A DNA stretch of 64,000 nucleotides. Source: Pseudohongiella sp. (GTDB lineage: Bacteria; Pseudomonadota; Gammaproteobacteria; Pseudomonadales; Pseudohongiellaceae). Below the pieces are notes generated by a model. It was not told where the DNA came from, searched no databases, and was given only the letters and a program-made list of their open reading frames with translations. Shown here piece after piece: positions 3,625 to 31,508 of the stretch; positions within the stretch are counted from its first letter, which is position 1, and the number at the start of each line of letters is the position of its first letter. The translations under genes and the position numbers were made by a program. The stretch spans positions 1-64,000 of the forward strand of contig JAUSCD010000030.1 of NCBI GenBank assembly GCA_030651695.1, written 5' to 3'.

Positions 3625-3668
3625 CCGCCGGCGCTGAATAATTCATGTAATCTAAAGGGAAGTCACTT

Positions 3669-5033: not shown

Positions 5034-5037
5034 TTGT

Positions 5038-8746: not shown

Positions 8747-8790
8747 GCTCAATCCACAAAGAAGTACAGCAGTGAATTTCTGGAGAGATC

Positions 8791-11363: not shown

Positions 11364-11374
11364 GAGGTGCATCT

Positions 11375-13345: not shown

Positions 13346-13566
13346 TCTGCCAGCATCCTGGAATCAGGGGTTTTTAACTCCGCCAGCTTCAGTGTTTTAC
13401 CTGATACCGATGACCCTGGAGAGTCTTTAACCTAAGACTTGACGCATATTATTCTGCTCACGATTAACAAACATCGCAAAAACTGGATGGGACGAAGTAT
13501 TTCCGTCCTGTTTAGACGTTTCTCGAAAAATGCAACGTAAAGCTCTTAATAATCGGGAATTCCATA

Positions 13567-14667
13567 ATGAGTTCTGTTGATCTGGTGATCGACTCCGTCC
13601 TTCCCCGCAAACGTATTGCTGTGATAGCTCCAGGTATGGAAATTCTTGGGGGGCAGGGTGTTCAGGCTGCTGCATTGATGAATGAGCTGGCGAATGATGG
13701 TTTTAATGTTACGTTTATACCGGTCAATCCGCGTTTTCCGCGCACACTGGCATGGCTCCGGAAAATACCTTATCTGCGAACCTTGCTTAATCAATGGTTG
13801 TACAGGTTGTCGCTCAGGGCGATAAAAAATGTTGACGTTGTCCATCTCTTCTCTGCGTCGTATTGGTCGTTTCTATTGGCACAAGTGCCTGCAATCGATG
13901 CATGTACCCGATATGGAAAACCGGTGATCCTGAACTACCACAGCGGCGAGGCAGACGACCATCTGCGTAACTGGGGCATGTGGGTGCACCCATGGATCGA
14001 ACGAGTCGAAAAAATTGTTGTGCCGTCGTTGTATCTCCAGCAGGTGTTTGCCAGCTATGGTTACAAGGCCCGGGTTATTCCAAACATAGTCAGTCTCAGA
14101 CAGTTCAACTATCGGCAACGAAAACCAATCCTTCCTCACTTGTTATCAGTAAGAAATCTGGAATCTATCTATAGAGTCGGCAATACGCTTGCCGCCTACC
14201 GGTTGATAAAGGAAAAGTTCCCCGGGGCAACACTCACCGTCGCCGGTTACGGGAGTGAAGAGCAGAAGTTAAAAGCTTATGTTCGTGAAAACAATATCAG
14301 GGATGTCATCTTTGTCGGGCGCGTTGAACCGGACAATATCGCTGCTCTCTACGACCAGGCTGACATTTTTGTCAATTCGTCCGTGGTGGACAATCAGCCG
14401 CTTTCAATACTCGAGGCTTTTGCAGCAGGTCTGCCAGTTATCAGTACCTCGGTAGGCGACATACCGCAAATGATAACGCACCAGAAAACCGGGCTACTGG
14501 TCGCGGCAGATCAGCCTGACGCGATTGCCGAAGCAGTTTTCTGGATTCTTGAACACCAGTCAGAAACCGCAGAAATCGCTGGTGCGGCGCGTTGCAGTGT
14601 TAAGAAATACACATGGCAATGCGTGCGTACCGAGTGGACCAACCTTTTTGAAGAGACCACATCATGA
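13567..14667 (+). CDS. Glycosyltransferase family 4
   Basis: RIAVIAPGMEILGGQGVQAAALMNELA, LTVAGYGSEEQKLKAYV, DIFVNSSVVDNQPLSILEAFAAGLPVISTSVGDIPQM. Confidence 0.93.
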   Translation: MSSVDLVIDSVLPRKRIAVIAPGMEILGGQGVQAAALMNELANDGFNVTFIPVNPRFPRTLAWLRKIPYLRTLLNQWLYRLSLRAIKNVDVVHLFSASYWSFLLAQVPAIDACTRYGKPVILNYHSGEADDHLRNWGMWVHPWIERVEKIVVPSLYLQQVFASYGYKARVIPNIVSLRQFNYRQRKPILPHLLSVRNLESIYRVGNTLAAYRLIKEKFPGATLTVAGYGSEEQKLKAYVRENNIRDVIFVGRVEPDNIAALYDQADIFVNSSVVDNQPLSILEAFAAGLPVISTSVGDIPQMITHQKTGLLVAADQPDAIAEAVFWILEHQSETAEIAGAARCSVKKYTWQCVRTEWTNLFEETTS

Positions 14668-16928
14668 GACTGCAGAAGCTGTTAAATATGGCCCCCGCGG
14701 AAATAGTCTGCAGAAGTCGCCAGGCCGTACTCAAGACGGTAGAGCGGGTCAGCTATTCCCCTGTGGATCCTGTGCGCCAGGTCAGCGAACTCTTCTATTG
14801 CCTGGACGAAGATCTCAACGATGCAGAAAGTCCATCGTCGCTTTTTAAACACGGTTATCAAGAGTATGCAACAGAAAGTCTGCAACTGCGGTTCCGGGCG
14901 TTAGCGCAGCAACGGTTTTTTCCCGGAGCAAGTGATGCGCTAGCCCCCGGTATGATAAGTCTGTATCTGCCAAACCTGCGTGATGAGGTTATCAAAGACG
15001 CTGAAACCATCTGTAGTGGAAAGTACTACACCCTGGGCTACGGCTGGCTGGCATTTGACAAAGATAATGCCAGCGGTACCAACTGGCATCTGGATGCAGT
15101 CTCCGGAACGGTTTCACCATTTGTGCACTGGAGTCGAATTGATGCTTTGAACTTTGCACAGGTGGGTGACAGCAAAGTTGTGTGGGAATTAAATCGTCAC
15201 CAGTGGTTGTTGCAGTTGGGTATGGCGTGGCAATTCACTGGCGATGATAAATATGCCGTGGTATTCACACAGAAGTTGCGGGCATGGATGCAGGAAAACC
15301 CGCCGGGTTTTGGAATAAACTGGACCAGTTCTCTGGAGGTTTCCTACCGCCTGATTTCCTGGTGCTGGGCTTTGGTGATGTTCAGAAACTCATCAAGAGT
15401 CTCACCGTTCATGCATCTGAGCATAATGTCCTGGCTGCAGGCACATGCGTTGCACATAGAGCGCTACCTCTCGATCTACTACTCTCCGAACACCCATCTG
15501 ACAGGCGAAGCATTGGGCCTGTATTACGCAGGTGTACTTTTCCCCGAAATAAACGGCTCCGCGCGCTGGCGTTCGCTGGGCAGGAAAATCCTGCTGGAGC
15601 AGCTCGGGCGGCAGGTTCATGAGGACGGTGTGTACTTCGAGCAATCTACAAACTATCAGTACTATACCGTAGAGATATATCTGCACTTCATGATTCTGTC
15701 GCAGCGCAACGGCGATGAGTTACCAGACAGCTTTCTTGATCGTGTGCAAACCATGCTGGATTTTCTGCTTGATATGCGCAGACCTGATGGAACCGTCCCT
15801 GCGGTTGGTGACATGGATGGCGGCAGTCTGTTTCCGGTCGTGCACCGCAAAGCGGGAGACTTCAGCGCAGCATTCTCAATTGCTGCGGTATTGTTCGACC
15901 GACAGGACTATGCGTGGGCCGCAGGCAGCAGCACACCGGAACTTGTCTGTCTGATGGGCGCTGCCGGGCACTACGCTTTGATGGCCATGAGGAAAAAAGC
16001 CCCGCTGGTGATCAGCTCGTGCCTCTATCCGGATGGCGGCTACCTTATTATGAGAAATGACCGGCATGCGCGCGGTCATCAAATGATTTTTGATGTGGGT
16101 CCACTTGGCTGTCCGGATAGCGCGGCACACGGGCATGCAGATCTGCTGGCCATCCAGTGCAGCGCGTTTGGCGATAACTACCTGGTGGACGCGGGCACTG
16201 ACAACTACACGGCTGACCCGCAGTGGCGCAATTATTTTCGCAGCACGCAAGCGCACAATACAGTTTGTGTAGACGGTCTTTCCCAGGCTGAGCCGGTTGG
16301 TCCGTTCTCATGGCAAAGCCGACGGCCCGTTGTCAGCCTTCGCAGTTGTTGGACCACCCCGCAAATGTCTCTGGTTGATGCGAGCCACGATGCCTGGAGC
16401 AATTTGCCGGACCCGGTTACACACCGTCGCAGGATTATTTTTGTCAGACGCAGATATTGGGTACTGATTGATGATCTCTGCGCGAAGCAATCTCATAAGT
16501 TCGATCTCAATTTTCAATTTTCACCTATTGAGATCAGTCTGGAGAACGAAAGCTGGGTTCGTGCGAAGGGGGCAAGTGGCAGTTGCCTGATGATGCACAT
16601 CAGTGCCAACAGCAAACTGAAGTACGCCATCTCCAGCGGCCAGGAGAATCCACCACGTGGCTGGATATCAGAGAACTATGGTCAGAGAATTCCCGCACCT
16701 TCTCTGAGTTGTACGACAGAGTCGGACAAGCCGGTGCGCTTTATTACCATATTGTTACCGCTACCGGAATCAGCGATGGACGCGCCTGCAGTAACAGTGC
16801 GGCAGTCTGAATCAGAGTCAGGGTCGGATTACATACAGATAGATTTTCATGACAGTAAAAGTGATCTGATTGTGGTATCAGACTCCGACGTCACCATGAC
16901 AAGAGGGATTGGTCTGTGTGCGGAATAG
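14664..16928 (+). CDS. Heparinase II/III / alginate lyase family protein
   Basis: NWTSSLEVSYRLISWCWAL, SPNTHLTGEALGLYYAG, YFEQSTNYQYYTVEIYLHFM, GCPDSAAHGHADLLAIQCSAFGDNYLVDAGTDNYTADPQWRNYFRSTQAHNTVCVDG. Confidence 0.92.
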   Translation: MRLQKLLNMAPAEIVCRSRQAVLKTVERVSYSPVDPVRQVSELFYCLDEDLNDAESPSSLFKHGYQEYATESLQLRFRALAQQRFFPGASDALAPGMISLYLPNLRDEVIKDAETICSGKYYTLGYGWLAFDKDNASGTNWHLDAVSGTVSPFVHWSRIDALNFAQVGDSKVVWELNRHQWLLQLGMAWQFTGDDKYAVVFTQKLRAWMQENPPGFGINWTSSLEVSYRLISWCWALVMFRNSSRVSPFMHLSIMSWLQAHALHIERYLSIYYSPNTHLTGEALGLYYAGVLFPEINGSARWRSLGRKILLEQLGRQVHEDGVYFEQSTNYQYYTVEIYLHFMILSQRNGDELPDSFLDRVQTMLDFLLDMRRPDGTVPAVGDMDGGSLFPVVHRKAGDFSAAFSIAAVLFDRQDYAWAAGSSTPELVCLMGAAGHYALMAMRKKAPLVISSCLYPDGGYLIMRNDRHARGHQMIFDVGPLGCPDSAAHGHADLLAIQCSAFGDNYLVDAGTDNYTADPQWRNYFRSTQAHNTVCVDGLSQAEPVGPFSWQSRRPVVSLRSCWTTPQMSLVDASHDAWSNLPDPVTHRRRIIFVRRRYWVLIDDLCAKQSHKFDLNFQFSPIEISLENESWVRAKGASGSCLMMHISANSKLKYAISSGQENPPRGWISENYGQRIPAPSLSCTTESDKPVRFITILLPLPESAMDAPAVTVRQSESESGSDYIQIDFHDSKSDLIVVSDSDVTMTRGIGLCAE

Positions 16929-18823
16929 CAGGAGTGCTCAAGCTCGACGCAAGTGCCCAGGTTAACGAAGAGGCGCTGATAAGTATGCGGGACACATTGC
17001 GCCATCGCGGTCCGGATGGCGCTGGCGTTATGGTTCATGGTCGGATCGGGCTCGCCCATCGCAGACTTGCCATTATCGACATTGAAGGCGGGCACCAGCC
17101 CATGCCAAACAAGTCCAGGGATTGCTGGATCAGTTACAACGGCGAGATCTATAACTACAAGAGTCTTCGCCGCCAGTTGGAGGTCTTGGGCTGCAGCTTC
17201 GAATCGGAGTCCGATACTGAGGTCGTGCTCTGCGCCTATGAGGTGTTCGGCGAAGTCTGTGTCGATTTGTTTGAAGGCATGTTTGCTTTTGCCATCTGGG
17301 ACAACCGACGCCAGCGACTGTTTCTGGCGCGTGACAAATTGGGCATAAAGCCGCTGTATTACAGCACTTCTGATACCGAATTCCGGTTTGCATCGGAGAT
17401 TAAGGCGTTACTGGTGCAGCCGACGCAGTCCCACGGATTTAACAAGGACGTATTGTCCGATTTTCTTGCAAACCGCTATGTGGCGGGATGCGAAACATTT
17501 TTCACGGGAATAAAAAAGCTGTTGCCCGCACAAACAATGATGTGGACAGAGCGTGAAGGATTCATACAGCGCAAGTATTGGAGTCCCCCTAAGACAAAGG
17601 AAAACAATAATTACACCACTCTTGACTACGTGGAGCAGGTAAAAAAGGCGCTGGATGAAGCGGTCAGCAGTCACCTTGTCAGTGATGTTCCGGTCGGGCT
17701 GTTTCTTTCCGGCGGACTGGATTCAACGGCGTTAGCTGTAATCATGAAGCCGATGGTCAACGAGCCTGTCAAAACGTTTTCAGTTGGATTCAGTGAAGCA
17801 TCTGCCAACGAATTGTCCTATGCCAGACTTGCCGCCGAAGCGGTGGGTTCTGAACATTATGATCTTGAAGTCAGCGCTGAGCAGTTTTTCGAAACCCTTC
17901 CTCATCTTATCTGGCACGAAGATGAGCCGCTGGCATTTACTTCAAGTGTGCCGCTGCACCTTTTATCAAAGCTTGCCAGAGAACACGTGAAGGTTGTGCT
18001 GACCGGTGAAGGTGCGGACGAGTTGTTTATTGGTTACGACTACCGTTACCGCGTCACCGCTTTTAATCAGCGTTGGGGGAACCGGTTCAACCAGATCAGT
18101 AGCGAGAGCGTGCGGGCAGCTATTGCCAGTCTGATTCCCGGGCTACCCTATCAGGTCAGACGTTATGTCGAACGTAGTTTCGTCGCTTTGGGAATTGAGC
18201 CCCGACAACTGTTCTGTGAGAACTTCTCAGTGTTTCGCGCGCAACATCGGTCAGCTGTGCTCAACGGAAACTTTGCAAATGCAGCCGATCCTCACCGTCA
18301 GACTCTGGATTTTTTTACGGCGGCAGGAAGTGAAATTATTCAATGCATGAGCCATGCCGATCTTCAGACCTATCTGGTCGAATTGCTGATGAAGCAAGAC
18401 CAGATGAGCATGTCGGCATCGGTGGAAAGCCGTGTGCCATTTCTGGACAACCGCCTTGTAGATCTTGTTGCCGCTATTCCTGCGCGTTTCAAAATGAACG
18501 GCTGGCAGACCAAGTCACTGCTGCGCGAAGCGGTGAGTGACATTATTCCGCCAGCCATTTTGCACCGCAAAAAAATGGGCTTCCCGGTACCCATAAGCGC
18601 CTGGTTGCGAGGGCCTTACTGGTCTCTGCTGGAAAAGATGATTCTTGGGCCGCGTGCACGAGACAGGGAGCTATTCGATTTCGAGGCAGTGCAACGGATG
18701 GCTCAGGAGCATCGCCGGGGAAAAGCCGACCACGGTGAGCGTTTATGGCTGCTATTGAATCTGGAAATCTGGTTACGGATATTTATCGACGGTGAAGACC
18801 CGGGTGCGATTTATGCCAATTGA
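16916..18823 (+). CDS. Glutamine-dependent asparagine synthetase-type amidotransferase (copy 2)
   Basis: GTG start; MCGIAGVLKL, LRHRGPDGAG, LSGGLDSTALAVIM, LTGEGADELFIGYDYRY. Confidence 0.95.
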   Translation: MCGIAGVLKLDASAQVNEEALISMRDTLRHRGPDGAGVMVHGRIGLAHRRLAIIDIEGGHQPMPNKSRDCWISYNGEIYNYKSLRRQLEVLGCSFESESDTEVVLCAYEVFGEVCVDLFEGMFAFAIWDNRRQRLFLARDKLGIKPLYYSTSDTEFRFASEIKALLVQPTQSHGFNKDVLSDFLANRYVAGCETFFTGIKKLLPAQTMMWTEREGFIQRKYWSPPKTKENNNYTTLDYVEQVKKALDEAVSSHLVSDVPVGLFLSGGLDSTALAVIMKPMVNEPVKTFSVGFSEASANELSYARLAAEAVGSEHYDLEVSAEQFFETLPHLIWHEDEPLAFTSSVPLHLLSKLAREHVKVVLTGEGADELFIGYDYRYRVTAFNQRWGNRFNQISSESVRAAIASLIPGLPYQVRRYVERSFVALGIEPRQLFCENFSVFRAQHRSAVLNGNFANAADPHRQTLDFFTAAGSEIIQCMSHADLQTYLVELLMKQDQMSMSASVESRVPFLDNRLVDLVAAIPARFKMNGWQTKSLLREAVSDIIPPAILHRKKMGFPVPISAWLRGPYWSLLEKMILGPRARDRELFDFEAVQRMAQEHRRGKADHGERLWLLLNLEIWLRIFIDGEDPGAIYAN

Positions 18824-20102
18824 TAGCAGCAAGACCAGGCTACGGATTCTATGGGTCAAAATGGGAGGACTGTGGCCAGCCAACTCAGGCGGGCGACTGC
18901 GCAGTTTCCACATCATTAATGAGCTTTCAAAGAGTCACGAGGTGACGGTACTGACGACGCATGGTCCGCTTGAAATGGGCGCAGGGCTACGTGAAAACCT
19001 TCCACTGTGTAAGCGGGTAGAGTCCTTCCTGTTTGCTCCCGCAAAAAAAGACAGCAGGCTGTTTTTGTTTTCGCTTGCAGCGTCGTGGCTGTCACGTTAC
19101 CCGGTTGATGTATACAAGCATCAATGTCCCGAGCTCGCAATGGAAGTAAAGACGCTGCTAGCCAGCGGCGATTTTGATCTTTGTATTGCAGACTTCCTGA
19201 CCGCGGTTCCCAATGTTCCTCTGGCTGGGGAAACCCCCGTTGTATTGTTCTCGCACAACGTTGAATACATGATCTGGCAACGTCTTTACGACAATGAACA
19301 GTTATGGCTGAAGAGACAATTGCTGGCAATTGAATGGCGAAAAATGCGCCGGTTTGAAACTCGTGTCTGCAACTCGGTTGCCACCACAATCTCAGTCTCT
19401 GAAGAGGATGCAGCGCAACTCAGAGAAGGTAGCCCTGATGCATGCATAACATCTGTACCAACGGGCGTTGATATTGAGTACTTCAGTCCGGCACCAGAAA
19501 CCGTAAAAAAGCCGGACTCCCTTGTGTTCAGCGGTTCCATGGACTGGTTCCCCAATGAAGAGGCAATGTTGTACTTCATAAAGGAAGTTCTGCCTCTGGT
19601 AAGAGCGAAGTCACCCGATGTAACGCTAACCATCGTCGGACGCAATCCGTCTGAGCTGCTGCGAACAACGGCGCAGAACCATGCAGTCGAAGTCACCGGC
19701 ACGGTGTCTGACATCCGTCCATGGCTGGTCAACGCTGAGCTGTATATTGTGCCGCTCAGAATAGGTGGCGGTACCCGACTGAAGATTTACGAGGCGCTGG
19801 CAATGGGACTGCCCGTGATCTCTTCCACCATCGGGGCGGAAGGCCTCGACCTCCAGGAAGGTACTCACATTGTTCGCGCCGATACTGCACAGGCATTTGC
19901 CGCGCAGATACTCCACTTGCTTGAGAACCCCGGTCTCCGTGAACAACTCGGTAAAAATGGCAGAGATCTGGTAGTAGAAAAATACTCCTGGTCCCGCATA
20001 GCAAGCAATTTCGAATTCCAATGCCGGGCAGCAGCACTGCAGCACGAGCCGGGACCTTCTTACAAAGAAATCACAGCAGATTTTAAAAACATCCGAAACT
20101 AA
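18813..20102 (+). CDS. Glycosyltransferase family 4
   Basis: LWPANSGGRLRSFHIINELS, DSLVFSGSMDWFPNEEAMLYFIKEVLPLV, VPLRIGGGTRLKIYEALAMGLPVISSTIGAEGL; ATG at 18813 overlaps upstream stop. Confidence 0.92.
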   Translation: MPIDSSKTRLRILWVKMGGLWPANSGGRLRSFHIINELSKSHEVTVLTTHGPLEMGAGLRENLPLCKRVESFLFAPAKKDSRLFLFSLAASWLSRYPVDVYKHQCPELAMEVKTLLASGDFDLCIADFLTAVPNVPLAGETPVVLFSHNVEYMIWQRLYDNEQLWLKRQLLAIEWRKMRRFETRVCNSVATTISVSEEDAAQLREGSPDACITSVPTGVDIEYFSPAPETVKKPDSLVFSGSMDWFPNEEAMLYFIKEVLPLVRAKSPDVTLTIVGRNPSELLRTTAQNHAVEVTGTVSDIRPWLVNAELYIVPLRIGGGTRLKIYEALAMGLPVISSTIGAEGLDLQEGTHIVRADTAQAFAAQILHLLENPGLREQLGKNGRDLVVEKYSWSRIASNFEFQCRAAALQHEPGPSYKEITADFKNIRN

Positions 20103-20111
20103 AAGGTAAAG

Positions 20112-21434
20112 GTGATGAAAACAATCAGTATATTTGGATTGGGCTACGTCGGTTGCGTGAGTGCTGCCTGTTTCGCAAATGCGGGGCTTAACGTTATTGG
20201 TGTCGACATCAATGATGAAAAGGTGAAGTTGCTCAATCAGGGAAAATCGCCCATTGTTGAGCCGGGACTCGACGAACTGCTCGAGAAAATGGTGGGTGCC
20301 GGCAGACTGCGCGCAACTACCTCATGCGAAGATGCCGTCCGCAACTCAGACATCGCGTTTATCTGTGTCGGGACGCCGGGCAACGAACACGGTCAATTGC
20401 AGCTGTCTGCACTTCGCCATGTCAGTCAGGAAATAGGTGCTGCGTTAAAAACAGACAGCCGCCGGTACACGGTCGTAGTGCGAAGCACGGTATTGCCCGG
20501 GACGACATTAAAAAGTGTATGTGGCCCTTTGTACAAAGAAGCCGGTGCTTATGCCCGTTCAAGAATAAAGATTGCCGTGAACCCGGAATTCATGCGTGAG
20601 GGGACAGCCTTATCGGATTTTTCAAACCCGCCCTACACGCTGGTTGGTAGTGAGGATGAAGGCACCACCAATATACTCAGATCATTGTATGAGAGCGTCG
20701 ATGCACCATTCATAAACACACAGATTGCGACGGCGGAGACTGTCAAATATATCTCGAATGCTTACCACGCTCTGAAAGTTTGTTTTGCTAACGAAATTGG
20801 AGACGTCTGTGCCCGACTGGGTGTGGATTCTCAGGAAGTTATGCGCATCTTCAAACTCGACACCAAGCTCAACGTATCAGCGGCGTATCTCCGGCCCGGA
20901 TTTGCATTCGGAGGCTCCTGTCTGCCTAAAGATGTCAAAGCCCTGTTATATGCAGCGCACCATCTGGACGTCGAGATGCCTTTGCTGGACGCGATCATTC
21001 CATCGAACAATGCACAGATTCAGCAAGCGATCAACAATATTGTTGCAACCGGTGCAAAACGTATCGGTGTAGTGGGGCTGTCGTTCAAAGCTGATACGGA
21101 TGATCTCAGGGAAAGCCCTATGGTGATTGTTGTTGAAGCGCTCATCGGAAAGGGACTATCGGTACGAATTCTCGATGCCAATGTGGCGATTGCCAGTCTG
21201 ACCGGTGCCAACCGTCGCTACATAGTTGAGGAGATCCCGCACATCTCGATGTTGATGTGTGACTCGGCAGAGGCTTTGCTGGAGCACTCTGAAGTGCTGG
21301 TGATCGGTAGTGACAGTGAAGAGGCCGGTCAGGTACTGAAATATGCAGCGCCTGCGCAGACCGTGATTGATCTGACACGCGGGTGGCTGAAAATCAAACT
21401 CGAAAGCTGCGAAGAAGACAGAGCCGCCGCTTGA
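20112..21434 (+). CDS. GDP-mannose 6-dehydrogenase-like (AlgD-like) nucleotide-sugar dehydrogenase
   Basis: ISIFGLGYVGCVSAACFANAGLNVIGVDIN, NQGKSPIVEPGLDELL, VRSTVLPGTT, RPGFAFGGSCLPKDVKAL; close to AlgD from memory. Confidence 0.88.
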   Translation: MMKTISIFGLGYVGCVSAACFANAGLNVIGVDINDEKVKLLNQGKSPIVEPGLDELLEKMVGAGRLRATTSCEDAVRNSDIAFICVGTPGNEHGQLQLSALRHVSQEIGAALKTDSRRYTVVVRSTVLPGTTLKSVCGPLYKEAGAYARSRIKIAVNPEFMREGTALSDFSNPPYTLVGSEDEGTTNILRSLYESVDAPFINTQIATAETVKYISNAYHALKVCFANEIGDVCARLGVDSQEVMRIFKLDTKLNVSAAYLRPGFAFGGSCLPKDVKALLYAAHHLDVEMPLLDAIIPSNNAQIQQAINNIVATGAKRIGVVGLSFKADTDDLRESPMVIVVEALIGKGLSVRILDANVAIASLTGANRRYIVEEIPHISMLMCDSAEALLEHSEVLVIGSDSEEAGQVLKYAAPAQTVIDLTRGWLKIKLESCEEDRAAA

Positions 21435-23041
21435 TCAATCGTCGTAATACTTTTCCAGCGTCTGTATTCTTTATGCTGATGAGTTTTATGGTTGCCGCAC
21501 AAACTGAGCGCAGTGTTGAGTTGCCCGGTGTCAGCGCACAACAAGACGCCGGTCGACGGATTCGGGTTCAGCCAGGTGATAACCTCCAGTCCGTGTTCAA
21601 TGCTGTGAGATCCGGTGATGTCATTGAGCTGCCTGCAGGCGCACAATTTGCCGGACCATTTGTATTGCCGCAGCATGACGGCGATGGATGGGTAACCATC
21701 ATCAGCGTCGACTCACAGAACCGGTTGCCTGCAGCCGGCGTCAGAGTAACTCCGGAAGACGTGGTAGCAATGGCGACGCTGGTAGCTGAAACAGAACCTG
21801 TTATTCGCACTGCCCCCGCAGCTGCCTGGTACCACTTCATAGGTGTGGAGATCAGGCCCGGACACGCGGGCAATGTCCCCAACCATGTGGCAGGTACAAG
21901 GCGCACAGTAAATAATCTTGTAGAACTGAGCTCTGGGCGCAACCAGCCCGGGGATATGCCCCATCATATAGTGTTCGAACGCAGCTACCTGCACGGTGAT
22001 CCGGTTCTGGGGACGCGCCGTGGCATTGTCCTTAATGGTGCGCACATGGCGGTGATCGATTCTCATCTTTCTGACTTTAAAAGCAGAGATGATGCGCAGG
22101 CAATCGCGGGATGGGAAGGATCAGGCCCGTTTTTGATCCGCAACAATTATCTCGAGGCAACTGGTGAGAACGTCATGTTCGGCGGTGCCGATCCATCAGT
22201 GGCTGGCCGTATCCCCTCGGACATTGTGATCAGCGGGAATCACTTCTACAAACCCTTATCCTGGTTGCCCGGACACGCTGATCATGACGGTTCGCGCTGG
22301 TCCGTCAAGAATCTTCTTGAACTGAAGAACGCCAGCAGAGTGCTCATTGACGGCAATCTTTTTGAGCATAACTGGCCACAGGCACAGAACGGATTTGCAA
22401 TTCTTTTTACCGTGAGAAACCAGAGCGGCCGGGCACCATGGTCAGTTGTCGAGGATGTTGTGTTCACAAACAATATTGTTCGTCGCGTGGGTGCAGGAAT
22501 CAGTGTGCTTGGTTTTGACGACAACTATCCGAGTCAGCGTACCCGGCGTCTGCAAATCAGAAACAACCTGCTATACGAAGTTGGGGGGCAATGGGGAAGC
22601 GGTCGACTTTTTCAGCTACTGGATAGCCCTGCCGGTATAGAAATCAGTCACAACACGGCTGTGCAATCCGAAGCAATCATGTGGGTGGAGGGTGAGGCAG
22701 TTCCGGATATAACAATCACTCACAACATATTTATGCACAACATTGCGGGTTTTAGTGGAACCAATACGGCGCCGGGCCAGCAAAGTATTGACAGGTATTT
22801 TTCAGGATCCGTCACGATCCAGGGCAATGTACTGATTGGACCGGGTGGGGCCAACTATCGCGAGGGAATGACTCGCGTTTCCAATATTGCGGGTATGGAG
22901 TTTGCCGATCCCGTGGATGGTAACTTTACAAGGCCGCAGCAGGCAGTGCAGCAAAATACAGATTCGAATCCTGTACCCGGTGTGGATTTTGAGAAACTAT
23001 GCGCCGCACTTTCCATCCCCGACCGCCCGTCTTACTGCTGA
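21431..23041 (+). CDS. Secreted right-handed parallel beta-helix protein
   Basis: Probable TTG start and signal peptide; VQPGDNLQSVFNAVRSGDVIELPAGAQFAGPFVLP and repeated FTNNIVRRVGAG / IRNNLLYEVGG / ISHNTAV / ITHNIFMHN / IQGNVLIG turns. Confidence 0.85.
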   Translation: MINRRNTFPASVFFMLMSFMVAAQTERSVELPGVSAQQDAGRRIRVQPGDNLQSVFNAVRSGDVIELPAGAQFAGPFVLPQHDGDGWVTIISVDSQNRLPAAGVRVTPEDVVAMATLVAETEPVIRTAPAAAWYHFIGVEIRPGHAGNVPNHVAGTRRTVNNLVELSSGRNQPGDMPHHIVFERSYLHGDPVLGTRRGIVLNGAHMAVIDSHLSDFKSRDDAQAIAGWEGSGPFLIRNNYLEATGENVMFGGADPSVAGRIPSDIVISGNHFYKPLSWLPGHADHDGSRWSVKNLLELKNASRVLIDGNLFEHNWPQAQNGFAILFTVRNQSGRAPWSVVEDVVFTNNIVRRVGAGISVLGFDDNYPSQRTRRLQIRNNLLYEVGGQWGSGRLFQLLDSPAGIEISHNTAVQSEAIMWVEGEAVPDITITHNIFMHNIAGFSGTNTAPGQQSIDRYFSGSVTIQGNVLIGPGGANYREGMTRVSNIAGMEFADPVDGNFTRPQQAVQQNTDSNPVPGVDFEKLCAALSIPDRPSYC

Positions 23042-23083
23042 ATAACATCCTGTTTTCTTACGCCTCGTTTGCAGGGCTTTGCC

Positions 23084-24217
23084 ATGATCGCTATTTTCTG
23101 GATTAGCGCTTTGCTGATTGTCTACACCTTCGTCGGCTACCCACTGGTGCTTGTGCTTTGGGCGCGTGCGAAAGCCAGTGAAATACGCTGTGCTGACTAT
23201 GAGCCTGATGTCAGCGTACTGATTATAGCCCGCAATGAAGAAGCCTCTATTGGCAACAAGCTGACGAATATCCTGGCGATGGACTATCCTGCAGAAAAGC
23301 TCCAGATAGTAGTTGCGTCAGATGCTTCGACGGATCGCAGCAATGCGATTCTCTCGGAATTTGAAACCCGCGGCGTAAAAGTTGTAACCGGATTCAGCCA
23401 GAGGGGGAAACCGGCGAATCTCAACGAGTGCGTCCCTGAATTATCCGGCGAAATTGTGGTGCTGATGGACGCCCGCCAAAATGTTGGTGTTGATGCCATC
23501 CGTGCAATGGTGAGGAACTTCAAGGATCCTCTTGTTGGAGCTGTCAGCGGTGAACTGATGCTCATACCGCAGGCAAACGATAGCAACAAGTCCGCATCCA
23601 ATGGTGTTGGATTCTATTGGCGCTATGAAAAATTCATGCGTCGTCTGGAATCAGAAATTGATTCCTGCGTAGGCGCCACCGGTGCGGTCTATGCCATCCG
23701 CAAACGACTCTTTCACCCCATAGCATCAGATACCCTGCTGGATGATTTTCTGATTCCCATGAATATAGTGCGTCAGGGTTATCGTGTTGTATTTGAGCCT
23801 GCGGCAATTGCATGGGACGCCGCAGAAATCACCGCTGCCAGTGAGTTCCGCAGGAAAACCCGGACAATCGCAGGGAATTTCCAGATATTCGCCCGGGAGT
23901 CGTGGTTACTTGATCCATGGGTCAACCGCCTTTGGATTCAGACGATTTCACATAAGTTCTTTCGTCTGACAGCACCGGTTTTTCTGTTGCTGCTTTTTAT
24001 CAGCAATGTGTTTTTGCTGACCAATGCATTTTTTGTGCTGTGCCTTGTGCTGCAACTGCTTTTTTATGGTGCTGCCCTGGTGGGACACACAACTGAATCC
24101 CGATGGCGTGGCATCCGGCTGCTCTCGGTTCCTTATGCGTTCTGCGTGCTTAACTGGGCGACAGTGATAGGTTTCTCCCGGTTTTTATCAGGCAGGCAAA
24201 AGATCGTCTGGAAGTAA
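23084..24217 (+). CDS. Glycosyltransferase family 2, membrane-associated
   Basis: PDVSVLIIARNEEASIGNKLTNILAMDYPAEKLQIVVASDASTDRS, VLMDARQNV, C-terminal TMs. Confidence 0.92.
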   Translation: MIAIFWISALLIVYTFVGYPLVLVLWARAKASEIRCADYEPDVSVLIIARNEEASIGNKLTNILAMDYPAEKLQIVVASDASTDRSNAILSEFETRGVKVVTGFSQRGKPANLNECVPELSGEIVVLMDARQNVGVDAIRAMVRNFKDPLVGAVSGELMLIPQANDSNKSASNGVGFYWRYEKFMRRLESEIDSCVGATGAVYAIRKRLFHPIASDTLLDDFLIPMNIVRQGYRVVFEPAAIAWDAAEITAASEFRRKTRTIAGNFQIFARESWLLDPWVNRLWIQTISHKFFRLTAPVFLLLLFISNVFLLTNAFFVLCLVLQLLFYGAALVGHTTESRWRGIRLLSVPYAFCVLNWATVIGFSRFLSGRQKIVWK

Positions 24218-24303
24218 ATCGCAGCTTCTCTGCCTTCCAAAAAAACTGCTCGTAACGCAATACCCTACCTCAGTGCAATACCTTCAATAAAGAGAGAAAC
24301 AAA

Positions 24304-25257
24304 ATGACTTATCTGGTGACAGGTGGTGCAGGATTTATTGGTTCCCATATCGCAGCGTATCTGTGTTCACAAGGCGCCGACGTGCGTGTACTTGATAATC
24401 TATCCACAGGTAAACGAAGAAACCTGGATGGTTTGCCCGTTACATTTATTCATGGGGACATACGCGATCCCGGGTGTGTTGCCGGTGCTGTAGAGGGTGT
24501 GGACACGGTATTCCATCAGGCCGCATTGTGTTCGGTGGCGCGCTCTATGGCGGATCCTGCTGCCACTCATGATGTCAATGTCACTGGTACACTGACTGTG
24601 CTGGATGCGGCGCGCAATGCCCAGGTGCGTAGGTTTGTGATGGCTTCGTCGTCATCCGTTTACGGAGACACCGAAGAATTTCCGACGCACGAGGAGATGA
24701 AAGCTAATCCGCTGTCGCCGTATGCAGTCTCCAAACTGATTTGTGAGTTCTACTGTCAGCTTTACTGGAAAGCGTACAGGCTGGACACGGTGGCTCTGCG
24801 TTATTTTAATGTTTTTGGACCCCGTCAGGACCCTGACTCCGAATACTCAGCGGTGATTCCACGATTTGTTCAGGCTATGGTGCATGGTGTTTCGCCGCAC
24901 ATTTACGGTGATGGATCCCAGTCGCGTGACTTCACGTTTGTTAATGACGTTGTACAGGCCAATATTGCCGCAGCAACCAGCGCGTATGCGCCGGGTCAGG
25001 TGATGAATATTGCGTGTGGAAATCGCAGGAGCCTGCTTGATCTCATCAGTAATCTCGAGAGTATCATGCAGTGTCGGTCGCGCCCTGTATTTGAAACTGC
25101 ACGCAAGGGAGATGTTAAACATTCACAGGCGAGTATTGAAAAAGCGCAAAGCCTGATCGCCTTTGCGCCTGAAGTTGAATTTGATGAAGGTCTGCGCAAG
25201 ACCGTCGACTGGTTTATTGCGCAGGATCATTCACGTCAGATTCGTGTTGCTGTGTAG
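24304..25257 (+). CDS. NAD-dependent epimerase/dehydratase (extended SDR, WbpP/GalE-like)
   Basis: YLVTGGAGFIGSHIAAYLCSQGADVRVLDNLSTGKRRNL; SSSSVYGDTEEFPTHEEMKANPLSPYAVSK. Confidence 0.95.
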   Translation: MTYLVTGGAGFIGSHIAAYLCSQGADVRVLDNLSTGKRRNLDGLPVTFIHGDIRDPGCVAGAVEGVDTVFHQAALCSVARSMADPAATHDVNVTGTLTVLDAARNAQVRRFVMASSSSVYGDTEEFPTHEEMKANPLSPYAVSKLICEFYCQLYWKAYRLDTVALRYFNVFGPRQDPDSEYSAVIPRFVQAMVHGVSPHIYGDGSQSRDFTFVNDVVQANIAAATSAYAPGQVMNIACGNRRSLLDLISNLESIMQCRSRPVFETARKGDVKHSQASIEKAQSLIAFAPEVEFDEGLRKTVDWFIAQDHSRQIRVAV

Positions 25258-25262
25258 ACTAT

Positions 25263-27263
25263 TCAGCTGGCCGGTGTAATCCTGAAGACCGCATCTTCCA
25301 AAGCTGCACCATGACTGTACATCGAACTGCCAGCAGAGAGTGGATACGGTACTGTCCTGGTGCTCGTGAAGAAAACAGTCCCGTTGCGTGAATAGCTGAC
25401 GCGACCGGCATTGATGGTGATGCTGAACCTGTCGCCTGTTTTGAATGGCGTGTCGCCGCGATAGACGCCACGTTCTCGTACCTCGGCCAGCCCGTTTTGC
25501 AGTCTCAGCCCGAACACAAGATCTGCAGCAGCAGGAATTGATTTCGTCTGGGTAAAGCCTGCCAGGAACAGCGGCCCATAGGAGCGCGCTGTAAACTCCA
25601 GGGTCGCGTTTCCGGAAGTCAGGGTTTCTGATGAAACTGCTCCTGCGTCAGGACATCCGTCGCACCCGGATGTTTTTGTAAAGAGTTTCCCCTGAGAGGT
25701 AATATTCTGCGCGTTCTGCCAAAGCACAGGCGCGGATGCCGGCGGCGGGGAACTCTCGACAATCGGTGCGGGGCCTGCGCCGCGCCCAGCGGTTCCATTT
25801 AAATTCCCCCCCAGGTTGATGCCCAGATCAATACCCAGGTTACCGCCCAGACTTATTCCTAAGTCGATACCCGGATTACCGCCCGGATTGACACCTAAGT
25901 TGATACCCGGAGGACTATTGGTCGCTTCCGCCATCAACTGCTCAGGTATCTCCACAATAAAGGCGTCCAGTCTGGAGCCGCCCATATTCGTGGTCCAGAG
26001 AAAATAGCGCCCGGTCACATCAAGATTGCCTTTGGCAGCGCGCGCATAGTCGTTATCACCGCCCGCAGCGTCCAGATTTGTCATGGTGGGCGCTATAACG
26101 ACCGATTTGCCCGAGCCGTTCAGTGTCAGGCAGACAATCTCATTGGCATGTGCGCCACTATTGCGATTGACACTACTGCCACATGCATATTGCTGTTGGG
26201 CCGGAAGACGAGGATTGGCATTTGTATGAGAAACGTGTGCCGGGGCAGCTACATTCCAGTTGTTATTCGAATACACGGACTCACCCTGCAGTGTGCTTTT
26301 GGTGAAGTCCCACAATTTCCAGGTATTCGGTTTCTCGGCCCAGTTGTCTTGCGCGATCATATAACCGTGGCCCATGTCGGAATGCCCCGCAGCTCCATCA
26401 CGATCACGTAACATCCGCTCCTGACCCGTGCGCAGGTTTACAATCAGATTGTCTTCTCCATCCATACCATCGAGATCGGCCTTGATTACCAGCCATTCCC
26501 CACTGCGATCAATCTGGCATTCGTCAAATTCTCCGGTAATTGGATAGTAGTGGTACTTATTAGTATTTTCTTCAAACGCCATGCATCCCAGCGCACGATA
26601 GCCTCTGTTTTCCCGCACAGTGGCGGAATGGACCCGGTCGTCATCACTTGAGTGCATTTGCGTCAACATGTAGCCGGCGCCAAGTCCATGAGAGATATCT
26701 GCCACCGTGGTCATTTCTTCGGTGATTACGTCAAAACGCGAAATTCGGGGCCCATCGTTGATATAGAGTTTGGTTGGCATGGTGGCACTGAAGTACCAGC
26801 CTTCGCCGGTGGCCCAGCCCAGCCGGTGAGTTTTTGGAAACAGCGCACCCAAATCGCGCACTGCTCCGGTTGCCTTGTCGAACTCTAACAAGGTAGGACC
26901 CTTTCCTCCGCGGCTGGCGTCCAGGCCCAGAAAAATCAACATCGAGTCCATGCCCACGTGATTATTCATGTTCCGCCAATACGAGTAGCCGGCATAATTG
27001 ACACAATCGTTACCGGCACAATCGCTCGCATTGGTTAATCTTGACGCCTTCGTGTTATAGGGGGCAGGAAATGTGAATGCACCACGTTGTGGCAACAGGC
27101 TTTGAATGTTCCCCGGGCTTAGAACAGCGCGGATACCTGCCGTAACTGTAGTTTCTGTGAATCCACCGGGGGCGGGAGCGGCCATCGCCGGTGACATTTG
27201 AAGCAGACAAACGGGTAATGCAGCTAACAGAGAGCGGACTATCGGGAGTTTCTTATTGTACAT
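25263..27263 (-). CDS. Secreted protein of unknown function with internal Gly/Asn-rich 12-aa repeats
   Basis: Signal peptide MYNKKLPIVRSLLAALPVCLLQMSPAMAAPAPGG; 666 aa; no family recognised with confidence. Confidence 0.8.
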   Translation of the reverse strand: MYNKKLPIVRSLLAALPVCLLQMSPAMAAPAPGGFTETTVTAGIRAVLSPGNIQSLLPQRGAFTFPAPYNTKASRLTNASDCAGNDCVNYAGYSYWRNMNNHVGMDSMLIFLGLDASRGGKGPTLLEFDKATGAVRDLGALFPKTHRLGWATGEGWYFSATMPTKLYINDGPRISRFDVITEEMTTVADISHGLGAGYMLTQMHSSDDDRVHSATVRENRGYRALGCMAFEENTNKYHYYPITGEFDECQIDRSGEWLVIKADLDGMDGEDNLIVNLRTGQERMLRDRDGAAGHSDMGHGYMIAQDNWAEKPNTWKLWDFTKSTLQGESVYSNNNWNVAAPAHVSHTNANPRLPAQQQYACGSSVNRNSGAHANEIVCLTLNGSGKSVVIAPTMTNLDAAGGDNDYARAAKGNLDVTGRYFLWTTNMGGSRLDAFIVEIPEQLMAEATNSPPGINLGVNPGGNPGIDLGISLGGNLGIDLGINLGGNLNGTAGRGAGPAPIVESSPPPASAPVLWQNAQNITSQGKLFTKTSGCDGCPDAGAVSSETLTSGNATLEFTARSYGPLFLAGFTQTKSIPAAADLVFGLRLQNGLAEVRERGVYRGDTPFKTGDRFSITINAGRVSYSRNGTVFFTSTRTVPYPLSAGSSMYSHGAALEDAVFRITPAS
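25806..25914 (-). repeat. In-gene ~36-bp tandem repeat (about 3 units)
   Basis: Translates to GINLGVNPGGNP / GIDLGISLGGNL / GIDLGINLGGNL. Confidence 0.85.
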
Positions 27264-27556
27264 CGCGGTTTCCCTGCTGATGTGGCATCAGCGAAATATA
27301 AAAAAAGTGACGTGGTAGAAAAGCACTCATCAAGTGTTCACCTGAGGGCTGTGTCTTTAGACCCCATTTATGCCCAATTTCCGACATGATTCGGTAACGT
27401 CTTTGTAACAATGCTCCGAAATGAGACGCCACCGGTTGTGAAGTCGCGATTGTAGTCACTGCCTTTTCAGGTGATTACCCGATGCTATGTGACAAGAATG
27501 GGGAGTAGTCTCCTTTTTTTTATGCTGCCGCAGCACTATCAAGGAGAATCAATAAA

Positions 27557-28042
27557 ATGAACGAAGAATCGATCAGTTATTTACCCACCACAGGCAGCAG
27601 CTATGCCATGGCAATAAACACTGCCGAGAACAGTAGTGATGTGGGGAAGCAGGTAAAAATTGCTTCTGCCCGCGACATCGTTGATGCCAGACAAAAAGGA
27701 AGAATACTTGCGCAGGAAATTGGCGCCTCTTCTACCCAGGCAACGCTGGTGGCCACTGTCATCTCCGAACTCGCCCGAAATATCATTTTGTACGCCGGCA
27801 GTGGCGACATTTTTGTTAAAAAAGCGCACACGGAAAAAACAACAGGGATTGAGATTGTTGCCGTCGATCGGGGTCCCGGAATCGAAAATATTTCCAGAGC
27901 CATGATGAACGGATTTTCTACTTCTGGAGGCCTTGGTTTGGGCCTGTCCGGCGTCAAGCAAATAGCTGACAGTTTTCAGATCTCCAGCGAGCTGAATCAG
28001 GGCGTTCGCGTAGAGGTGATTATGTGGCTGGTAAAAAACTGA
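27557..28042 (+). CDS. rsbT: RsbT-like anti-sigma/serine kinase ATP-binding protein
   Basis: ARDIVDARQKGRILAQEIG...VISELARNIILYAGSGDI...VDRGPGIENISRAMMNGFSTSGGLGLGLSGVKQIADSF, very similar to remembered Bacillus RsbT. Confidence 0.93.
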   Translation: MNEESISYLPTTGSSYAMAINTAENSSDVGKQVKIASARDIVDARQKGRILAQEIGASSTQATLVATVISELARNIILYAGSGDIFVKKAHTEKTTGIEIVAVDRGPGIENISRAMMNGFSTSGGLGLGLSGVKQIADSFQISSELNQGVRVEVIMWLVKN

Positions 28043-28165
28043 GACAAAATTTGAATACTAGTACATGAATTCACTCTATATGTGTGATATCGCACGGATT
28101 GATCAAAGTGTTTGCCATACTGTTGCTTCAGGTTTACGTTTTTACAAAAACGGAGAGCACGGAGA

Positions 28166-29092
28166 ATGGCAATACATGCACATGTCCCACAGCAAACAGC
28201 TTACAAAAAGCTACTGAGCTCGTACCTGGATAACGGGGGTGAAAGCGCCCTCACTGTAGCCTATGAACTGGGCAGAAGAAATTTACAGAATGGCACCGGG
28301 TTGCTGGAGCTGGCAGAAGTCCACCAGAAAGCACTCGATGAAGTTCTCGGCACAGTTGATGACAATTCTGTCACACGAAGAGACATCAACAGAGCGGCAA
28401 GTAGATTTTTAAGTGAAGCAATTTCGCCATTTGAAGTTGCGCGGCTTAGTAGTCGCAACGCTAATGATGCGTTAATAAAACTCTATGAGGTTTTTGAGAG
28501 CGAAGCCAAGCGCATCGCGCACAGACTTCACGATGAGTCCGCTCAGATGCTTGCGGTGGTTTATCTGGAGCTGGCAGAGATTGCCAAGGACTCCCCTGAT
28601 CACACAGCAGAACGCATACTCCAGGTGGTTGGCCACCTTGATGAGGTGTCCTCCCAGCTGAGAAGCCTGTCTCACGAACTGCGCCCTATTATTCTGGACC
28701 GGTTGGGTCTGCTGCCGGCATTACGCGCGCTGGTGAACGGAGTCAGAAAAAGAAGTGGACTTATTATAGATATCAGTGGAGACACTGAAGGTCGACTGGA
28801 CTCCCAGCGTGAGACCGTAATCTACCGGACCGTTCAGGAAGCACTCACCAATGTCAGTCGTCACGCAAAGGCCAGCCACGTGGATATCCACATCTGGCGC
28901 GATAGCAGCTGTATATGTTGCTCCATCAGTGACAATGGCAACGGCATGAAACTGTCTTCCCAAGGCTCGGTGGAGTCTCCCGGGCTCGGTCTGATAGGCA
29001 TCAAGGAAAGAGCGCGAGCTCTTGGTGGGGACTGCGAAATTTCGTCGTGCCCTGAATCTGGAACAACTTTACAGGTGATGATTCCACTATGA
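28166..29092 (+). CDS. NarL-class sensor histidine kinase (HisKA_3-HATPase) with RsbU_N-like N-terminus
   Basis: AKRIAHRLHDESAQMLAVVYLEL phospho-acceptor His; TVQEALTNVSRHAKASHVDI N-box; SPGLGLIGIKERARALGGDCEISS G-box; N-term YLDNGGESALTVAYELGRRNLQNGTGLLELAEVHQKALDEVLG. Confidence 0.9.
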   Translation: MAIHAHVPQQTAYKKLLSSYLDNGGESALTVAYELGRRNLQNGTGLLELAEVHQKALDEVLGTVDDNSVTRRDINRAASRFLSEAISPFEVARLSSRNANDALIKLYEVFESEAKRIAHRLHDESAQMLAVVYLELAEIAKDSPDHTAERILQVVGHLDEVSSQLRSLSHELRPIILDRLGLLPALRALVNGVRKRSGLIIDISGDTEGRLDSQRETVIYRTVQEALTNVSRHAKASHVDIHIWRDSSCICCSISDNGNGMKLSSQGSVESPGLGLIGIKERARALGGDCEISSCPESGTTLQVMIPL

Positions 29093-29733
29093 ATGTTAAT
29101 ACACGCAAGCGAGTAGTGATTGCGGACGACCACGCCATGTTTCGCCAGGGTCTGAAAGGTATGCTGGAAGGCGACGAATACGTGGTTGTTGGCGAGGCGG
29201 AAAACGGCCACGATGCGATTCGTACGGTAAGGCAGCAGACACCGGATCTGGCAATCCTGGATTTCAGTATGCCGCTGTTGAATGGTATCGATGCTGCCCG
29301 TGATATTCAGCGCCGGTCGCCAGAAACCCACGTGGTTTTGCTGACCATGTATGACGATGACACGTGTGTATTTGAGGCTTTGCGCGCCGGCGTGAGAGGG
29401 TACGCTCTGAAAACGCAGACCTCTACTGATCTGCTCGGCGCACTACGCGAAGTGATGAAAGGCGCGGTCTATCTGAGTCCGGACATTTCAGATTCTGTTG
29501 TTAACGCTTATGTCTCTAAAACCGACATCAAGTCAGAGGTGTTGAGCGAGCGGGAAAGACAGGTTCTGCAACTTATTGCGGAAGGTCATACTACCAAGTC
29601 CATCGCTGCCATGCTGTTCGTAAGTGTCAAGACGGCTGAATCGCATCGCACCCATATCATGCAACGTCTTGGGCTCCACAACATTGCTAGCCTTGTTCGA
29701 TATGCTATACGTCGGGGAATGATCAAGGCCTGA
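29089..29733 (+). CDS. NarL/LuxR-family response regulator
   Basis: VVIADDHAMFRQGLKGML, DLAILDFSMPLLNG receiver Asp, LSERERQVLQLIAEGHTTKSIAAMLFVSVKTAESHR HTH. Confidence 0.95.
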   Translation: MNVNTRKRVVIADDHAMFRQGLKGMLEGDEYVVVGEAENGHDAIRTVRQQTPDLAILDFSMPLLNGIDAARDIQRRSPETHVVLLTMYDDDTCVFEALRAGVRGYALKTQTSTDLLGALREVMKGAVYLSPDISDSVVNAYVSKTDIKSEVLSERERQVLQLIAEGHTTKSIAAMLFVSVKTAESHRTHIMQRLGLHNIASLVRYAIRRGMIKA

Positions 29734-29760
29734 CAGAGTAAATATATAAGAGGCAACCAA

Positions 29761-30387
29761 TTGAAAATCTTGCTCGCGGATGATCATGTGATGTTCCGTC
29801 ACTGTGTCCGGAATCTTCTTGAGTCTGCAGGGATAGAGATTGTGGGCGAAGCATCAGATGGTGCTGATGCATTAAGAATGGTTATGGACTTACAACCTGA
29901 CGCCATTGTGCTGGACGTCAATATGCCATTACAAAACGGCATCGAGGTCGCAAAGGAAATCCGGTTGGCTGGCCTTGAGACCAGGGTGATCATGTTGACG
30001 ATGTATGACGAAGACAACAGTTTCCTGGAAGCATTCCGCGTTGGCGTGCAAGCGTATGTTCTGAAAACCCAGGCGTCAGCAGACCTTGTCCGTGCGGTTC
30101 GCGAAGTAAGTCGCGGCAGGCTGTATTTGAGCCCGGAGTTGACAGCCAAACTGGTAGAAGTCTATCTCAAGCAGGACGATGATGGCAGCGTGCGGTTGTC
30201 GTTCAGAGAGCGGCAGATTCTTCAGCTTGTTGCAGAAGGCACAATTACAAGAGAAATTGCAAGGATGCTCAATCTCTCGGTGAAATCAGTCGAGTCCCAT
30301 CGCAGTCAGTTAATGAAAAAACTCGAAGCTACCAATATTGCCGGACTCGTCCGGCATGCGGTCAGATTGAGAGTTGTCAGTCCCTGA
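29761..30387 (+). CDS. NarL/LuxR-family response regulator (paralogue of preceding)
   Basis: TTG start; ILLADDHVMFRHCVRNLLESAGIEIVGEASDG, AIVLDVNMPLQNG, LSFRERQILQLVAEGTITREIARMLNLSVKSVESHR. Confidence 0.94.
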   Translation: MKILLADDHVMFRHCVRNLLESAGIEIVGEASDGADALRMVMDLQPDAIVLDVNMPLQNGIEVAKEIRLAGLETRVIMLTMYDEDNSFLEAFRVGVQAYVLKTQASADLVRAVREVSRGRLYLSPELTAKLVEVYLKQDDDGSVRLSFRERQILQLVAEGTITREIARMLNLSVKSVESHRSQLMKKLEATNIAGLVRHAVRLRVVSP

Positions 30388-30423: not shown

Positions 30424-31077
30424 ATGTTACAGGGTTCTATTTTTCATAGAATTGTAAAGAAGCTAAACTCTCCGGGCCTGCAATATCAAAGCTTGATATT
30501 TTTTGCCTACGACATGAAGAAAACTCTCGAGCCTGCAGGCAAATATGTTCTGAGCCGAACTAATGGGGCGCTTGAGTTTCATGCCTTTGATTCGACTTTG
30601 GATCCATTGCTGACAAAGTTGTGTGTGAAGTATCCGGATAAAAGATTCTACAGGCGAATGAAGCATGGATATCAGCACTGTTATGTTTTGATTGATAAAA
30701 ACGAGATCGTGGCTTATGCCTGGGTAACAACGTCGACCTGTTATGTAAGCGAACTGGATTTTATGTTGCCTATAGGCCTGGGTCGATTTTATATCTACGA
30801 CTGCTTTGTTGATGAAGCTTTCAGAGGCAGGGGTTTATACCAGGCCTTACTGGGAAAAATAATTGCGGACTATGCTACTCTACGCTGGCCTGGTCAATTC
30901 ACAGCAGCATGTATAGCAGCCGAGCCGGGGAACATCGCATCGATTCGTGGTATCAGGCGTGCAGGGTTCAAAGAGTTTGCCCGTGCCAGGTATATTCAGA
31001 TTGGCAAAGCTACTCGTTTATATGGTGTTAACACGCTGGTTTCGTTTATGAACTCAACGGCTGATCCACTCAGGTGA
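30424..31077 (+). CDS. GNAT-family N-acetyltransferase
   Basis: YIYDCFVDEAFRGRGLYQALLGKIIADYA acetyl-CoA-binding motif; IRRAGFKEFARARYIQIG. Confidence 0.8.
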   Translation: MLQGSIFHRIVKKLNSPGLQYQSLIFFAYDMKKTLEPAGKYVLSRTNGALEFHAFDSTLDPLLTKLCVKYPDKRFYRRMKHGYQHCYVLIDKNEIVAYAWVTTSTCYVSELDFMLPIGLGRFYIYDCFVDEAFRGRGLYQALLGKIIADYATLRWPGQFTAACIAAEPGNIASIRGIRRAGFKEFARARYIQIGKATRLYGVNTLVSFMNSTADPLR

Positions 31078-31407
31078 GAACGCCATTCGATACCCTACAT
31101 TGCGTACTGTGATGATGAGATTGCCGGCTTCTCCGAGTTTCTTGCGTAGTCTGCCAATGTGTACATCAACGGTGCGGGTTTCAAGCAGGTTAACGTTGCC
31201 ATAACGCCACACTCGTTCCAGCAAGGTGACGCGGCTGATGACTTTTCCGCGCTCCAGCATAAGGGCTTTTAACAGGAGGTATTCGATGTACGTAAGATCA
31301 ACCGCAGCACCGGAAACTGAAACCAGCCACTGTTTTGTGTGGATGGTAATGGAGCCAGCGGACATATTGTCCTGATCGTTTTCACTGATGTCTTGTCGTG
31401 TGCTCAT
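31054..31407 (-). CDS. Stand-alone OmpR/PhoB-type winged-helix DNA-binding protein (no receiver domain)
   Basis: VDLTYIEYLLLKALMLERGKVISRVTLLERVWRYGNVNLLETRTVDVHIGRLRKKLGEAGNLIITVRNVGYRMA; only 117 aa. Confidence 0.88.
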   Translation of the reverse strand: MSTRQDISENDQDNMSAGSITIHTKQWLVSVSGAAVDLTYIEYLLLKALMLERGKVISRVTLLERVWRYGNVNLLETRTVDVHIGRLRKKLGEAGNLIITVRNVGYRMAFSPEWISR

Positions 31408-31508
31408 AGATATTTATTACTACGCTGGATTAGAAGTTGTTACATAGTAGTCCAGAGGGCGTTCTTTCATAAGCAGGTAATTACCCCATTTTCGGGTGAA
31501 CAACAGGT

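Follow-up and report, generated by a model that had tools for sequence, protein, structure and literature searches.

In Bacillus subtilis, the N-terminal RsbU_N domain of RsbU binds RsbT, and this pair carries the output of the stressosome to sigma B through the PP2C phosphatase of RsbU. Moorella thermoacetica, which we take to have a stressosome, has RsbU_N on a different enzyme. Its MtG protein is an RsbU_N-GGDEF protein under RsbT control, according to the citation of Quin et al. 2012 in PMC12143880, and its output is a diguanylate cyclase. Proteobacterial RsbRSTX modules with RsbU_N signaling proteins downstream and phosphorelay outputs have also been published (Heinz et al. 2022, PMC9237108; PMC12143880), and an RsbU_N histidine kinase was modelled in PMC12143880.

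Here we describe a locus in a 64,000-nucleotide stretch of a Pseudohongiella sp. contig (JAUSCD010000030.1, positions 1 to 64,000; referred to as the window). Like B. subtilis, it has RsbT together with a partner that begins with RsbU_N. However, the output is a histidine kinase with NarL regulators rather than a PP2C phosphatase, and profile searches found no RsbR or RsbS in the genome. As in Moorella MtG, RsbU_N has been transferred to another enzyme with an RsbT partner (predicted in the window), but that enzyme is a histidine kinase rather than a diguanylate cyclase. With the modules of Heinz et al. (PMC9237108) it shares an RsbU_N histidine kinase adjoining rsbT. The window and two relatives differ from those modules in lacking R, S, and X, in having two regulators, and in lying alongside an exopolysaccharide (EPS) cluster.

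A preliminary description had proposed that RsbT switches this two-component kinase. The RsbU_N profile match, the absence of RsbR and RsbS, the existence of RsbRST(X)-linked kinases of the same kind, and a palindrome described below all favor that interpretation. However, coupling of RsbT to a histidine kinase is not new, because RsbU_N kinases beside rsbT have already been published (PMC9237108, PMC12143880). What is new, as far as the searched literature shows, is the stressosome-free form syntenic across two genera, the EPS linkage, which is seen again in a different order, and TCAGGTNNNNACCYGA as a candidate site for a regulator. Recent work on RsbU linkers raises the question of how RsbT-type messengers control histidine kinases. 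This locus reduces the problem to four genes. It dispenses with the large stressosome complex, its proteins are soluble, and it has a predicted DNA readout, so whether RsbT activates a kinase is directly testable. If our interpretation is true, partner-switching parts function in the absence of the sensor core, and exopolysaccharide control is the new task of a stress messenger.

RsbT and its catalytic motifs

The gene at 27557..28042 (plus strand) encodes a 161-residue GHKL switch kinase (HATPase_c, 42.2 bits). Its earlier assignment as RsbT holds. The N (SELARNI), G1 (DRGPGI), and G2 (GFSTSGGLGLGL) boxes are intact in the alignment, as they are in all three genomes that have the locus (the window genome and relatives G038 and G039), and the protein is 44% identical to a manually entered B. 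subtilis RsbT sequence. R45 and R49, which correspond to B. subtilis R19 and R23, are invariant along with the catalytic motifs in nine aligned homologues and the B. subtilis sequence. Two other members of the same RsbU-contact set, N24 and D92 of B. subtilis RsbT, are not conserved. A genome search found a single rsbT copy. The protein is extended at its N terminus by about 30 residues, and its AlphaFold2 model has a pLDDT of 83, with low confidence for residues 1 to 30. EPS-linked RsbT proteins (window, 27557-27650; L057:6611-7129) have N-terminal extensions of about 30 to 45 residues, which the stressosome RsbT proteins of G594 and G750 do not.

A soluble histidine kinase begins with RsbU_N

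The next gene (28166..29092, plus strand) encodes a soluble histidine kinase with the order RsbU_N-HisKA_3-HATPase_c. Its start is probably the ATG at 28166 rather than the first-listed TTG at 28112, because homologues fit the ATG and a purine-rich stretch lies upstream of it. The N terminus (28199..28441) had been likened to RsbU_N by eye, and the profile search agreed. It covers the full PF08673 model, scoring 45.5 bits in the genome-wide search (E 2.7e-11) and 42.5 bits with hmmscan, both over the cutoff of 25.5. This domain is the predicted RsbT-docking site, and no second PF08673 domain exceeded the cutoff in the genome-wide search. It is followed by HisKA_3 (28508..28690; PF07730, 30.3 bits) and HATPase_c (28814..29089; PF02518, 47.5 bits), and the protein has an H-box (RIAHRLHDESAQ), an N-box, and glycine boxes. 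Pfam detected no PP2C/SpoIIE C-terminal domain, so the proposed replacement of the phosphatase by HisKA_3 and HATPase_c is correct, and it recognized no sensor domain other than RsbU_N.

Structural comparison of RsbU_N gave a match with modest statistics. The AlphaFold2 model is all-helical (pLDDT 73) and its best PDB match was the RsbU N-domain, 1w53, with a probability of 0.96 but an E value of 0.42 and TM scores of 0.48/0.62. When the kinase N terminus was compared with the PDB by phmmer, designed helical repeats, which are not meaningful matches, outranked 1w53 (E 0.39). Among RsbU residues implicated in RsbT binding (PMC12143880), E24 (and L27) are kept in the kinase and Y28, I74, and I78 are not. 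A related-locus search of genome contigs returned only relatives of the kinase core, and the relatives found by tblastn against plasmids were all below 60% identity, the best being cache-domain kinases.

Two NarL-type response regulators follow, as had been described, both with REC and GerE domains and on the plus strand. RR1 (29089..29733) overlaps the kinase stop codon and is 81 to 83% identical to its counterparts in the related stretches L020 and L021. RR2 (29761..30387) is a paralogue of RR1 and is 74 to 76% identical to its counterparts there. By its Pfam domains, a HisKA_3 and HATPase_c kinase with REC-GerE regulators, the system is NarX/NreB-like. Downstream are genes for a GNAT acetyltransferase (30424..31077, plus strand; PF00583; 46 to 49% identity to L020/L021) and a winged-helix (Trans_reg_C) protein without a receiver domain (31054..31407, minus strand; PF00486; 76 to 79% identity), and synteny is kept for both.

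Upstream of rsbT is a divergent gene (25263..27263, minus strand) for a 666-residue putative secreted protein. It belongs to a family of about 640 to 740 residues with no Pfam match, which has one member in the window and tandem duplicates in the relatives (L020:2623-6901, L021:2620-6879). Beyond it is the EPS cluster (404..25257, plus strand), the predicted target of the module, which is syntenic in G038 and G039. Its genes encode a Wzc-like chain-length protein, a tyrosine kinase, a sugar transferase, a ligase, amidotransferases, a heparinase II/III-like protein, UDP-sugar dehydrogenases, and an epimerase. In both relatives, the EPS operon opens with genes for a NusG/RfaH-like protein and a beta-barrel protein (L096:13136-13744; L098:12426-12989).

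No RsbR or RsbS was found in the genome

The preliminary description had noted the absence of RsbR and RsbS from the window. This was supported by an RsbS HMM, which we built from eight sequences (seven from loci analyzed here and that of B. subtilis, entered manually). It had no match in the window, in L020 or L021, or in the stand-alone STAS loci L006, L051, and L052. An rsbR-S-T-X set directly 5' of the kinase is absent in the window, L020, and L021. Extending the search to the 3.86-Mb assembly with the PF01740 and PF13466 profiles also revealed no RsbR or RsbS. Of an RsbRS-RsbU(PP2C) set elsewhere that could account for RsbT, the RsbRS part was therefore not detected by these STAS searches, and PF08673 gave no second domain over its cutoff.

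The genome does encode STAS proteins, namely three SulP transporters and a single stand-alone chemotaxis STAS (C30:43647). The latter adjoins CheY- and CheA-like genes and has no phosphorylatable residue, with VDGAG at the phospho-Ser/Thr position. The loci of G038 and G039 also have no RsbR or RsbS. Genome-wide STAS hits in these relatives were either long frames of SulP size or stand-alone STAS genes, with a 103-residue STAS in G039 among the hits. The stand-alone genes whose surroundings were inspected, a set without this 103-residue STAS, adjoin chemotaxis-type genes.

The same kinase follows complete RsbR-S-T-X sets elsewhere

PF08673 exceeded the cutoff in 3 of 137 genomes of the family. 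In wider samples, genomes over the cutoff numbered 1 of 394 for the order, 9 of 369 for the class, and 10 of 399 for the phylum. The family matches include G038 and G039, which are in another genus, and both have the RsbT-HK-RR-RR-GNAT-wHTH block in synteny, again next to this EPS cluster. A weak PF08673 match in G041 was not part of this locus. Two other family members (G019 and G017) have the EPS cluster without a detected RsbU_N, and both contigs stop where the module would begin.

Three gammaproteobacteria outside the family have a different arrangement. G594 and G750, from other families, have the order RsbR-RsbS-RsbT-RsbX-[RsbU_N kinase]-NarL-GGDEF. In G771, contig C5 has RsbR-S-T and ends inside rsbX. 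Contig C151 opens with the RsbX C terminus, followed by the RsbU_N kinase, a NarL regulator, a second RsbT, and converging EPS genes that are 49 to 57% identical to those of the window. We infer that these contigs join into one RsbR-S-T-X-kinase-NarL locus. All three genomes have an RSTX-HK-NarL order, of the type described by Heinz et al. and across two contigs for G771, and their kinases are 43 to 45% identical to the window kinase. Because the same kinase and regulator follow complete RsbR-S-T-X sets elsewhere, the window locus is probably the output arm of a stressosome whose RsbR/RsbS/RsbX core was lost. The opposite polarity, in which the arm came first and the core was added later, is also possible.

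A conserved palindrome is a candidate regulator site

Neither an inverted-repeat scan nor a promoter scan of the DNA upstream of rsbT was informative. However, phylogenetic footprinting of this region in three genomes revealed some 45 bp of conserved sequence containing TCAGGTNNTTACCCGA. In the window, the palindrome within this sequence (TCAGGTGATTACCCGA, 27467..27482) is 82 bp upstream of rsbT, and a second copy (TCAAGTGTTCACCTGA, 27330..27345) sits closer to the divergent gene, 75 bp upstream of it. All three genomes have TCAGGTNNNNACCYGA upstream of rsbT and the secreted-protein gene (67 to 90 bp) and the winged-helix gene (73 to 74 bp). The copy upstream of the winged-helix gene in the window (GCAGGTAATTACCCCA, 31473..31488; 74 bp) has equivalents at L020:11107 and L021:11214. 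Several secreted-family copies have a palindrome 67 to 75 bp upstream.

The palindrome also occurs in the EPS cluster. A copy inside it (TCAGTGTTTTACCTGA, 13389..13404) is 170 bp upstream of an EPS glycosyltransferase gene (13567), and G038 has one in the equivalent place (155 bp). At the start of the EPS operon, upstream of the NusG-like first gene, it lies at 193 bp in G039 and 201 bp in G038; this site was read in the relatives, as the window contig begins inside the operon. The EPS locus had been suggested as a target of the module, and these sites provide a putative link between the two. In G019, a palindrome-like TCAGGTAAAGTACCGA (L090:11438) lies 99 bp upstream of a homologue of the EPS glycosyltransferase gene.

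Once the rsbT intergenic region, the source of the motif, was set aside, there were 8 intergenic matches in 4,052 bp, compared with 3 in a 32,254-bp control from the window genome. Palindrome counts across this genome covered a 400-kb sample. The associated p value (3e-6) overstates the strength because orthologous sites are not independent. The window alone had 2 matches in 865 bp (p 0.006). TCAGGTNNNNACCYGA is the best candidate for a response-regulator site. We infer that it belongs to RR1/RR2, although another regulator could own it. On general grounds, the palindrome's inverted-repeat form makes a NarL regulator a likelier owner than a CRP-, PhoB-, or winged-helix-type protein.

Proposed mechanism and alternatives

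In the explanation that we favor, RsbT would dock onto RsbU_N of the soluble kinase and stabilize its active dimer. The kinase would then phosphorylate RR1, RR2, or both, and these are predicted to bind the TCAGGTNNNNACCYGA copies that precede the EPS operon, the divergent secreted-protein gene, and rsbT, creating feedback in the last case. We assign a probability of about 0.6 to this explanation as a whole, loss of the stressosome core included. It rests on features read from the DNA: the domains, the catalytic motifs, the absence of RsbR and RsbS, the synteny, the recurrence behind full stressosomes, and the palindrome with its positions. The rarity of the module in the family counts against it, as does the EPS cluster without a detected RsbU_N in two family members, and the contact residues that are not conserved (Y28, I74, and I78 of RsbU; N24 and D92 of RsbT) count against the predicted docking. 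Control of RsbT would most likely come from its own dosage with feedback, which is the simplest guess, or from a non-STAS partner. The more specific proposal of a free-standing RsbT-kinase switch with no STAS antagonist, which is set in one of these ways and directly governs EPS through a NarL regulator at TCAGGTNNNNACCYGA, is tentative, and we lean somewhat against it.

Also against the favored explanation, no known mechanism switches RsbT without RsbS, so the kinase-RsbT pair may be constitutively on. RsbT might then be a relic, a fixed and unregulated co-activator, with control only through transcription of the operon or other inputs. The genome-wide absence of RsbR and RsbS fits this, and the palindromes upstream of the operon could set its level. 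However, intact N, G1, and G2 boxes in three genomes would be superfluous in a pure scaffold, and fusion or decay might be expected of an unregulated pair. We consider this alternative unlikely. The kinase has RsbU_N, the domain known in B. subtilis for RsbT binding, and this argues against RsbT acting by phosphorylating serines in the kinase or the regulators instead of docking. That route was suggested for RsbT targets without RsbU_N (Heinz et al., PMC9237108), and it gains something from the kinase motifs retained by the window RsbT, but for this locus it is improbable. A diverged antagonist (STAS or other) encoded outside the locus could also sequester RsbT or be its substrate, making this a conventional partner switch whose genes are dispersed. 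The stand-alone STAS gene C30:43647 is available for such a role. However, its VDGAG sequence, its chemotaxis setting, and its failure to match the RsbS HMM speak against this, there is no further stand-alone STAS in the genome, and we regard such an antagonist as very improbable.

Other RsbU_N arrangements

Some further RsbT neighborhoods were encountered in these searches. L064:7223-8996, from the same phylum but outside the class of the window, has an RsbT and RsbU_N-HisKA kinase pair with no RsbR or RsbS nearby. At L061:6886-10275, L062:7651-9113, and L063:6206-9905, RsbT is beside a protein that joins RsbU_N to an HD-GYP type (HD_5) domain. The fetched stretches contain no RsbS-like ORF. 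L061 and L063 have an additional RsbU_N on a PAS-HK-REC protein.
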